Below are positions 5,248-44,605 of a DNA stretch of 64,000 nucleotides, piece by piece. The notes beneath the pieces were generated by a model. That model was not told the DNA's origin and searched no databases. It was given only the letters and a program-made list of their open reading frames with translations. The stretch spans positions 52,559,812 to 52,623,811 of the forward strand of contig CM049314.1 of NCBI GenBank assembly GCA_026874595.1, read 5' to 3'. The position numbers were made by a program, and so were the translations under genes. Numbering within the stretch: the first letter of the stretch is position 1; each line of letters starts with the position of its first letter. This stretch comes from Sipunculus nudus (Eukaryota; Annelida; Sipuncula; Golfingiida; Sipunculidae).

Positions 5248-5429
5248 GATCTGGAGATCATGCCCAGTGGAGACCAGACGTTGGTTGGAGAGCGAGGGGT
5301 CAGTCTGAGCGGTGGTCAGAAAGCCCGGGTCAGCCTGGCCAGAACTCTGTATTGTGAAGCAGATGTGTACCTCCTGGATGACCCCCTCAGTGCTGTAGAC
5401 ACCGCAGTTGGCAGGCATTTATTTGACAA
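5248..5429 (+). CDS. ABCC4/MRP4-like transporter, exon c (ABC signature, Walker B)
   Basis: This is the catalytic core of NBD1: 60 codons plus two bases. It contains the ABC signature LSGGQKAR, then Walker B and the D-loop in [12 protein letters not shown]. In ABCC4-type NBD1 the residue after the Walker B aspartate is also aspartate, as here, which marks the less active site of ABCC pumps. The exon starts in phase 0 after ATACAG and ends at GACAA, before GTAAGT. The split lysine codon AA|G is completed by the first base of exon d. This exon end is also the first unit of the 34-bp array that follows. Confidence 0.95.
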
Positions 5430-6316
5430 GTAAGTGGCCAACCACTAACTTGCTAAATATGATGGCGACCAGCCAGTATATATTTGACAAGTTAGTGGGC
5501 GACCAGCCATTATATATTTGACAAGTTAGTGGGAGACCAGCCAGTATATATTTGACAAGTCAGTGGGAGACCAGCCAGTATATATTTGTCAAGTCAGTGG
5601 GAGACCAGCCAGTATATATTTGTCAAGTCAGTGGGAGACCAGCCAGTATATATTTGTCAAGTCAGTGGGCGACCAGCCAGTATATATTTGTCAAGTCAGG
5701 GGGAGACCAGCCAGTATATATTTGACAAGTCAGTGGGAGACCAGCCAGTATATATTTGACAAGTCAGTGGGAGACCAGCCAGTATATATTTGACAAGTCA
5801 GGGGGAGACCAGCCAGTATATATTTGTCAAGTTAGTAGGCAGCCAGCCAGTATATATTTGACAAGTCAGTGGGAGACCAGCCAGTATATATTTGTCAGGT
5901 CAGTGGGAGACCAGCCAGTATATATTTGACAAGTCAGTGGGAGACCAGCCAGTATATATTTGACAAGTAAGTGGGCGACCAGCCAGTATATATTTGACAA
6001 GTTAGTGGGAGACCAGCCAGTATATATTTGACAGGTTAGTGGGAGACCAGCCAGTATATATTTGACAAGTCAGTGGGAGACCAGCCAGTATATATTTGAC
6101 AAGTCAGTGGGAGACCAGCCAGTATATATTTGACAAGTTAGTGGGAGACCAGCCAGTATATATTTGACAAGTCAGTGGGAGACCAGCCAGTATATATTTG
6201 ACAAGTTAGTGGGAGACCAGCCAGTATTTATTTGACAAGTAAGTGGGCAGCCAGCCAGTATATATTTGTCAAGTCAGTGGGAGACCAGCCAGTATATATT
6301 TGACCAGTAAGTGGGT
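5418..6316 (+). repeat. 34-bp minisatellite seeded by the exon c donor (about 25 copies)
   Basis: The unit is of the type TTTGACAAGTCAGTGGGAGA + CCAGCCAGTATATA. The exon c junction TTATTTGACAAGTAAGTGGC is recognisably the first unit, and full-length copies start near 5485. Most copies vary the donor (GTTAGT, GTCAGT), but copies near 5967, 6233 and 6303 keep the strong form AGTAAGTGGG. The period is 34 bp, not a multiple of three. The open frames across it are repeat artefacts. Confidence 0.93.
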
Positions 6317-6512
6317 GGCAAATATATATTATGGCACATTTAACTAAGTCATTTTAAGATTTCACAAAATATTTCACAACATCTTTATTGTATATTGCTT
6401 CATAGTTAAGCTGACTGCCAAGTTTTTGCCAATATTTAAAACAATTTCTGTTATGTTTTATGTGTAGAGACAATTTTTTCTTCATGGGTCAGTGTATGGT
6501 TATATTTGACAG

Positions 6513-6609
6513 GTGTATATGTGGAGTGCTGAAGGACAAGCCTGTGATCTTGGTGACCCATCAGCTCCAGTACCTACAGGCAGCAGACAAGATACTCATA
6601 ATGAAAGAG
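6513..6609 (+). CDS. ABCC4/MRP4-like transporter, exon d (NBD1 H-loop)
   Basis: The 97-bp exon completes the split lysine codon with its first base and encodes [21 protein letters not shown], then [11 protein letters not shown]. The histidine in VTHQLQYL is the H-loop (switch) residue that senses the ATP gamma-phosphate. The acceptor is TTTGACAG and the donor is GAG|GTACAA. The donor lacks a +5 G, so it is fairly weak. The last 22 exon bases and the donor form the first unit of a 39-bp tandem array that fills the next 6 kb. The next coding exon lies 14.8 kb away, in phase 0. Confidence 0.93.
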
Positions 6610-42645: not shown

Positions 42646-42858
42646 TTACATCAACCTATGTCAGTGGACACACATCAGTTAAACAGTGTATGTATAAAGA
42701 AGGCTGTACTGTATTTGTTTTCAGAAATGTGTAAGAGGTAGCAACAACTAATATTGGATTATTAACTCTGTTCACTTTAAAGAGGTGTTACTAGTGTTCT
42801 GTAACATTTAGCTGTTTATACAACTGTAACTGAGAGAGTCTTTTTCATTTATTTTCAG

Positions 42859-43009
42859 TGTGCCTTGGTTATCCTGTCAATCATTATTGTTACTGGCGTG
42901 GTCAACCCCTGGGTGTTCATACCTGTCATCCCCCTGGCTGTTGTTTTCTTCTTACTCAGACGATATTACCTGCAGACATCCAGGGACATTAAACGTCTAG
43001 AAGGGACAA
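42859..43009 (+). CDS. ABCC4/MRP4-like transporter, exon i (TMD2 helices)
   Basis: This exon has 50 codons plus one base. It reads CALVILSIIIVTGVVNPWVF, then IPVIPLAVVFFLLRRYYLQT and SRDIKRLEGT. These are two membrane helices with the short loop NPW, followed by the conserved RRYYLQTSRDIKRLE helix of ABCC proteins. The acceptor is TTTATTTTCAG and the donor is ACAA|GTAAGT. The next exon should start around the RSPVFSH motif. No such exon was found in the remaining 21 kb, so the following intron is longer than the window shows. Confidence 0.95.
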
Positions 43010-43032
43010 GTAAGTAAAGTTCAGTGTGCTTT

Positions 43033-44605
43033 CCTACAGGCCACTAACATTTAATGCTACCCCACAGGTCACTAACAGTGAATGCTCCCTCATACGTCAC
43101 AAACAGTGAATGCTCCCTCATAGGTTACTAACAGTGAATGCTCCCTCACAGGTTACTAACAGTGAATGCTGCTTCAAAGGTCACAAACAGTGAATGCTCC
43201 CTCACAGGTCACTAACAGGGAATGCTGCCCCACAGGTTACTAACTATGAATGCTCCCTCACATTCACTTACATTCAATGCTCCCTCACAGGTCACTAACT
43301 GTGAATGCTACCCCACAGGTCACTAACAGTGAATGCTCCCTCACAGGTCACTAACAGTGAATGCTCCCTCACAGGTCACTAACAGTGAATGCTCCCTCAC
43401 AGGTCACTAACAGTGAATGCTCCCTCACAGGCCACCAACAGTGAATGCTCCCTCACAGGTCACTAACAGTGAATGCTCCCTCACAGGCCACCAACAGTGA
43501 ATGCTCCCTCACAGGTCACTAACAGTGAATGCTCCCTCACAGGTCACTAACAGGGAATGCTGCCTCACAGGTTACTAACAATGAATGCTCCCTCACATTC
43601 ACTTACATTCAATGCTCCCTCACAGGTCACTAACAGTGAATGCTCCCTCACAGGTCACTAACAGTGAATGCTCCCTCACAGGCCACCAACAGTGAATGCT
43701 CCCTCACAGGCCACCAACAGTGAATGCTCCCTCACAGGTCACTAACAGTGAATGCTCCCTCACAGGTCACTAACAGTGAATGCTCCCTCACAGGTCACTA
43801 ACAGTGAATGTTCCCTCACAGGCCACCAACAGTGAATGCTCCCTCACAGGTCACTAACGGTGAATGCTCCCTCACAGGTCACTAATAGTGAATGCTCCCT
43901 CACAGGTCACTAACAGTGAATGCTCCCTCACAGGTCACTAACTGTGAATGCTTCCCCACAGGTCACTAACAGTGAATGCTCCCTCACAGGTCACTAACAG
44001 TGAATGCTCCCTCACAGGCCACCAACAGTGAATGCTCCCTCACAGGTCACTAACAGTGAATGCTCCCTCACAGGTCACTAACATTCAATGCTCCCTCACA
44101 GGTCACTTACATTCAATGCTCCCTCACAGGTCTCTTACATTCAATGCTCCCTCACAGGTCACTAACATTTAATGCTACCCCACAGGTCACTAACAGTGAA
44201 TGCTCCCTCCCAGCTCACTAACAGTGGATGCTCCCTCATAGGTCACTAACTGTGAATGCTACCCCACAGGTCACTAACAGTGAATGCTCCCTCACAGGTC
44301 ACTAACAGTGAATGCTCCCTCACAGGTCACTAACAGTGAATGCTCCCTCACAGGTCACTAACAGTGAATGCTCCCTCACAGGCCACCAACAGTGAATGCT
44401 CCCTCACAGGTCACTAACAGTGAATGCTCCCTCACAGGCCACCAACAGTGAATGCTCCCTCACAGGTCACTAAGAGTGAATGTTCCCTCACAGGACTAAC
44501 AGTGAATACTTCCCCACAGGTCACATACATTCAATGCCCCCTCACAGGTCACTAACAGTGAATGCTCCCTCACAGGTCACAAAAAGTGAATGCTCCCTCA
44601 ATGTT
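43033..44605 (+). repeat. 28-bp minisatellite beside the exon i donor (about 56 copies)
   Basis: The unit joins TCACTAACAGTGAATGCTCC and CTCACAGG. It starts about 25 bp after the donor. Each copy contains CCCTCACAG|GT, which looks like an acceptor or a weak donor. Variants with GCCACCAAC or TTACATTCAATG recur in blocks. Confidence 0.95.

Follow-up and report, generated by a model that had tools for sequence, protein, structure and literature searches.

Why should minisatellites of unrelated sequence begin or end on the exon-intron junctions of a single gene? The question is raised by a stretch of 64,000 nucleotides from Sipunculus nudus (contig CM049314.1, positions 52,559,812 to 52,623,811), referred to here as the window, in an assembly of 1.43 Gb (GCA_026874595.1). 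The gene in the window is ABCC4/MRP4-like. Nine exons, a to i, join into a protein with MRP4/ABCC4 as its best solved relative (E 1e-157). Their positions were derived from the reading frame, the splice signals and similarity to MRP4, and both frame and homology continue normally through them. A guide search of the 50-kb flanks added five further exons, one each in pieces L141, L143 and L144 and two in L145. All exons and period-named arrays of the window described below lie on the plus strand; arrays are named by their period in bp (p34, p39 and so on), and a slash in a sequence marks the border.

The initial annotation had placed seven arrays on or beside exon borders. For each border, the unit of the array next to it was aligned with 50 nt around the junction, and the score was compared with those of 3000 non-array positions. 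The donors of exons c, d, g and h, which had been read as first repeat units, retained that likeness in alignment. Exon c (5248..5429) ends in a donor from which the p34 array was seeded (5430..6315; 25 copies; unit ..ATATATTTGACAA/GTCAGTGGG..; P 0.002). The donor of exon d (6513..6609) is the first unit of p39 (6587..12506; about 149 copies; unit ..ATACTCATAATGAAAGAG/GTACAATAAACG..; 37/38 nt matching), that of exon g (25690..25943, ending ..FFDTNPV/GR) is the first unit of p44 (25930..32070; about 138 copies; unit TACAAACCCAGTAG/GTGGGTGTAACACAG..; 28/29 nt), and that of exon h (32454..32533) is the first unit of p60 (32510..32921; 7 copies; unit CTGACTGTGTATGACTTTATACAG/GTAAGTCAAACAAATACC..; 39/39 nt). 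At exon e (21448..21902) the acceptor and the start of the exon form the last unit of p61 (20152..21466; 21.6 copies), as had also been described. Borders d, g, h and e outscored all 3000 non-array positions (P 0.0003). By reading, exon e itself apparently has a GC donor (AAG/GCAAGT, window 21895-21910).

Three further clear junction arrays were found in the flanks: p47 at the acceptor of exon a, p65 at the donor of the L141 exon and p53 at the acceptor of the second L145 exon. The p47 array, with about 90 copies, lies in 4.2 kb directly upstream of the window (L142:5804-10000, equivalent to G000:C9:52555615-52559811) and stops exactly at window base 1, so that the array's final unit forms the acceptor of exon a (1..88; NBD1, with Walker A); 22/22 nt of this border match the unit. 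In the true exon, the sequence that was copied encodes protein alignable with MRP4, so copying ran from exon to array.

The remaining arrays of the gene lie beside junctions or away from them. Exon b (587..778) has an array at neither border. Beyond exon f (23442..23620) the p42 array (23636..25234) begins 16 nt 3' of the donor, and this border gave P 0.047 against the 3000 non-array positions and 0.078 against 115 donor-like positions, making p42 no more than a candidate junction array. Exon i (42859..43009) is followed at 27 nt past its donor by p28 (43036..44600; 56 copies); as a junction array it was rejected (P 0.38), and the array is adjacent without junction likeness, which is how it had first been described. 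Among the seven arrays of the initial annotation, those of exons c, d, g, h and e were thus borne out by border alignment, whereas that of exon i is a matter of adjacency; the periods (34, 39, 44, about 60, 61, 42 and 28 bp) were as reported. Off the junctions lie a p65 array (41297..42633; 20.6 copies) and a p44 family (55650..64000, continuing to L143:595). Together with three arrays in the flanks, these are included in the 7/15 large arrays (at least 5 copies, 114 kb) that do not span a junction. The off-junction p65 and p44, the p30 arrays of L143 and L144 and the p43 array of L145 did not clearly resemble any of the 14 exons (shuffle P 0.07-0.72), and with the arrays at f and i included there was likewise no clear likeness to other exons of the gene (P 0.05-0.72). 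The window introns also contain dispersed repeats with an internal period of about 277-340 bp and GGTGGCGCCACCT-like words (17737-18497, 38359-39132 and 52669-53529); these recur in random pieces L126, L127, L136 and L140 and are probably a mobile element family.

Comparison of 55 pairs of units agreed with the proposal that the arrays arose independently, as no pair within the gene region was better than P 0.01, uncorrected. The p34 unit (window 5467-6315) resembles at about 22/24 nt that of an otherwise unrelated p29 array in L001 (G000:C1:99067600-99071400), with the common motif GACA.GTCA..GGGAGACCAGCCA; the two arrays lie on different chromosomes. A pattern search of the genome for this motif returned no place beyond these two, and we treated the likeness as coincidence.

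Arrays at borders could reflect chance or constraint only: in a genome rich in minisatellites whose exons cannot hold arrays, some arrays will end at exons. Local repetition affects 41% of the window's first 47 kb, coverage of introns by arrays is high, and 5/20 random 2-kb pieces contained an array of period 25-200. The position of the seed units was compared with a null model in which they were placed at random on non-array intron (27 borders assumed; 28 gives the same result). Over 114 kb, a junction is spanned by 8 of the 15 arrays that have at least 5 copies, where 0.22 were expected (P 1e-11). Under the same null, the five arrays already recognised in the initial annotation give P of about 2e-6 by themselves, and the flanks alone, 50 kb outside its view, contain 3 junction-spanning arrays among 6 (expected 0.087; P 5e-5). 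Its judgement that chance placement is unlikely is upheld by these counts, although several large arrays of the gene are off junctions.

Exons of other genes were sampled by taking the DNA around 183 exon matches at 159 places (202,560 bases) from six protein families: 27 CCT chaperonin, 24 ABC transporter, 27 myosin, 65 kinesin, 20 tyrosine phosphatase and 20 SNF transporter exons. The choice was non-random, the exons being drawn from listed Pfam matches and nearly all lacking in-frame stops. Arrays reported by Tandem Repeats Finder (TRF) were counted only at period 25-200, overlapping rows were merged by hand, and whether an array spanned a junction was then judged by reading. Nine of the 23 minisatellites span a junction, compared with 3.16 expected (P 0.0019), so that the predicted enrichment at splice junctions was also observed beyond the gene. 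Six are at acceptors (L005, L048, L085, L093, L154, L165) and three at donors (L099, L115, L116); by family they belong to CCT (1), myosin (1), kinesin (3), phosphatase (3) and SNF (1), with none at the 24 ABC-transporter exons.

The strength of the sample excess varied with the handling of doubtful cases and was uneven among batches. L093 was counted as spanning because degenerate units run on, though TRF ends 84 nt before the border; L157, which is like L093 and about 100 nt short of the border, was left out of the junction count. The L099 array is irregular, and L150 (p22, also p132) was left out of the 23. Recounts gave 7/23 without L093 and L099 (P 0.028) and 9/24 with L150 added as a miss (P 0.0034), and the full range of recounts among the 23 ran from 7/23 to 10/23 (P 0.028 to 0.0004). 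By batch, 2/5 (P 0.23), 5/10 (P 0.007) and 2/8 arrays (P 0.19) span a junction; only the second is significant alone, and two non-significant batches of three are what chance or constraint could produce. That account explains why arrays stop before exons; it does not explain units built of exon sequence, and the seed-unit count is in excess both in the sample and in the gene. We therefore regard chance or constraint by itself as quite improbable.

The counts were also split by copy number and by locus. Arrays with at least 4 copies by TRF span a junction in 7/12 cases (expected 1.85; P 0.0007), whereas those with fewer than 4 do so in 2/11 (expected 1.3), with no clear excess; the difference between the two classes is not significant (P 0.09). 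The lack of a clear excess among few-copy arrays would point to expansion or survival, rather than birth, as the stage at which borders are favoured. The window gene is an outlier, with junction arrays at 8/27 borders compared with 9/366 in the exon sample (about 2%, counting two borders for each of the 183 exons; P 3e-6).

Several further observations came from the sampled pieces. L139 (G000:C13:43440350-43442349), one of the five random pieces with an array, has an in-frame coding repeat: on the minus strand, the ten residues GETSQSAALK, repeated about five times, terminate a reading frame which, by motif, presumably resembles a C1GALT-type glycosyltransferase. In L181 (G000:C2:44599579-44600679) an array at 1-143 lies 5' of a kinesin exon, and its unit, by reading, resembles a conserved kinesin coding motif; it is perhaps derived from a preceding exon outside the piece. 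ABC_tran (PF00005) was dropped as a source of exons, as all 19 among the matches listed were on the small contigs C61-C138 of G000. These contigs carry bacterial-type genes, several with identical scores in about ten contigs (for example a 596-residue ABC exporter and a 547-residue Cpn60), and appear to represent repeated assemblies of symbiont or contaminant genomes.

The structure of the units was compared over the 17 arrays whose unit aligns across a border, 8 in the window gene and 9 at the 183 sampled exons. Periods range from 31 to 89 bp and are divisible by three in 4/17 arrays (13/17 not divisible). The border is a donor in 8 and an acceptor in 9, and the exon contributes 7-85 nt of the unit, a share of 0.11-0.96 that is compatible with a uniform distribution (KS P 0.11, n=17). 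By reading, the exon is joined by the first or last copy alone.

These features bear on a splice-site-centred process, in which splice-factor binding, an R-loop or pausing at the border would cause a break and a duplication. Such a process would fit the excess at borders in the window gene and elsewhere, but the offset of the breakpoints is not fixed, as the spread of exon shares indicates. The near-equal use of donors and acceptors speaks against one factor, though not against a broad transcription-coupled bias. The splice-factor mechanism raised in the initial annotation is thus disfavoured in its single-factor form, and we consider a splice-site-centred process in general rather unlikely.

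The same annotation had suggested selection for extra splice sites, by which decoy or redundant donors and acceptors would be retained to regulate or protect splicing. GT or AG is indeed kept by most, though not all, copies (d 74/91, g 74/101, a 55/56). We compared conservation in 13 of the 17 junction arrays, lining up units of at least 60% identity, and found that this retention matches overall copy identity: the splice dinucleotide was above the other columns in 6/13 arrays, with a mean difference of about zero (Wilcoxon P 1.0). The two largest arrays even showed a splice dinucleotide less conserved than average. Taken with the few periods that are multiples of three, these results did not favour the suggestion, and selection of this kind is very improbable. 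As splice dinucleotides are not favoured, exon shares are scattered and donors and acceptors are about equally frequent, the copies behave as neutral intron, duplication occurred without a fixed breakpoint, and a single splice factor is not implicated.

The copies might instead be the raw material of new exons and introns, with intron gain or a shift of the border under way. A model of this kind was proposed for amphioxus globins in PMC3087553, and in L154, where the exon supplies about 85/89 nt of the unit, even the pyrimidine tract preceding every copied acceptor derives from exon sequence. Against this, no new exon or intron was found among the arrays here, the reading frame and homology of the gene are normal, and intron gain would be a possible outcome of the arrays, not their cause. 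As an explanation we consider it the most improbable of those weighed.

Our preferred reading is that the arrays are probably junction-spanning minisatellites of the kind called 'mirages', masked by splicing and biased to exon borders. The anatomy of the units shows a tandem duplication of about 30-90 bp across a border as the first step, giving a unit composed of an exon end plus donor or of an acceptor plus exon start. Splicing would then use whichever copy adjoins the exon, which is the first one at a donor border and the last one at an acceptor border; the mRNA would thus be unchanged and the other copies would become intronic. Freed of constraint, these copies may multiply by unequal exchange or by replication or repair slippage, to about 150, and drift. 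The second and third of these steps are drawn from the DNA of one genome assembly. The counts support statistically a further step, in which birth, expansion or survival of arrays would be commoner at exon borders than in nearby intron.

Splicing of the exon-side copy, with the message left intact, would explain why border arrays are tolerated. Tolerance does not explain the excess at borders, because duplications lying wholly within an intron are also tolerated. As its cause we prefer a process of duplication or repair that favours exons or their edges, with selection sparing only the border-spanning or in-frame cases; exon-biased duplication is preferred with low confidence over better expansion or persistence at borders. 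More tentatively still than the mirage reading itself, it is possible that a mutational process prefers exon-intron borders genome-wide for the creation or expansion of minisatellites, with splicing sheltering coding duplications and introns lengthening as a result.

The initial annotation regarded a mechanism favouring duplication at splice sites as new. That view is fair in part, yet the kind of array had already been described in amphioxus. According to PMC3087553, citing Canestro et al. 2002, mirages are tandem repeats across exon-intron boundaries in a few lancelet genes. They affect 5' and 3' borders, have units of 10 to about 160 bp, and keep AG/GT in many, not all, copies. The same text states that splicing is undisturbed and that copy number differs between haplotypes or tissues; its authors considered the mechanism unclear and mirages possibly general in cephalochordates. 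Compared with that description, the arrays here are alike in having a border-spanning unit, both border types, similar unit lengths and AG/GT in many copies. They differ in their host, in reaching about 150 copies and 6 kb with 8 arrays in one gene, and in that an excess over random placement was measured across six protein families. As to the host, muscle myosin exons of this genome scored best against the solved chains 3i5f and then 1dfk/1b7t (squid and scallop), ahead of vertebrate chains, a molluscan likeness that is a ranking by score and no formal placement.

Two other systems are related in part. Human genes in segmental duplications have variable internal tandem repeats at exon-intron boundaries (PMC2812944); these too are minisatellites in contact with exon borders and capable of altering gene structure, but there the main source of the repeats is exons of recent paralogues, and transcripts are changed, whereas here the mRNA would apparently be unchanged. 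Introns can also be gained by tandem genomic duplication of AGGT-containing exon sequence, as described in PMC4974935. In both that case and, presumably, ours the extra duplicate copy is removed by splicing; there a new intron is created in one step, whereas here many copies add to the length of an intron already present. Our literature search, which covered mostly papers free of subscription, returned amphioxus mirages as the sole clear precedent, with no report from another phylum and no genome-wide count. The kind of array is therefore known, and what is new is the host, the sample across genes and the scale.

Mirages, known from few lancelet genes, are thus extended to a genome in which such arrays are frequent enough for counting and testing. 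If the excess at borders is genome-wide, it would represent a way for introns to lengthen, starting at exon borders, and would link the birth of minisatellites to gene structure. The arrays would then also constitute a natural record of tandem duplications of coding sequence that survived because splicing hid them.
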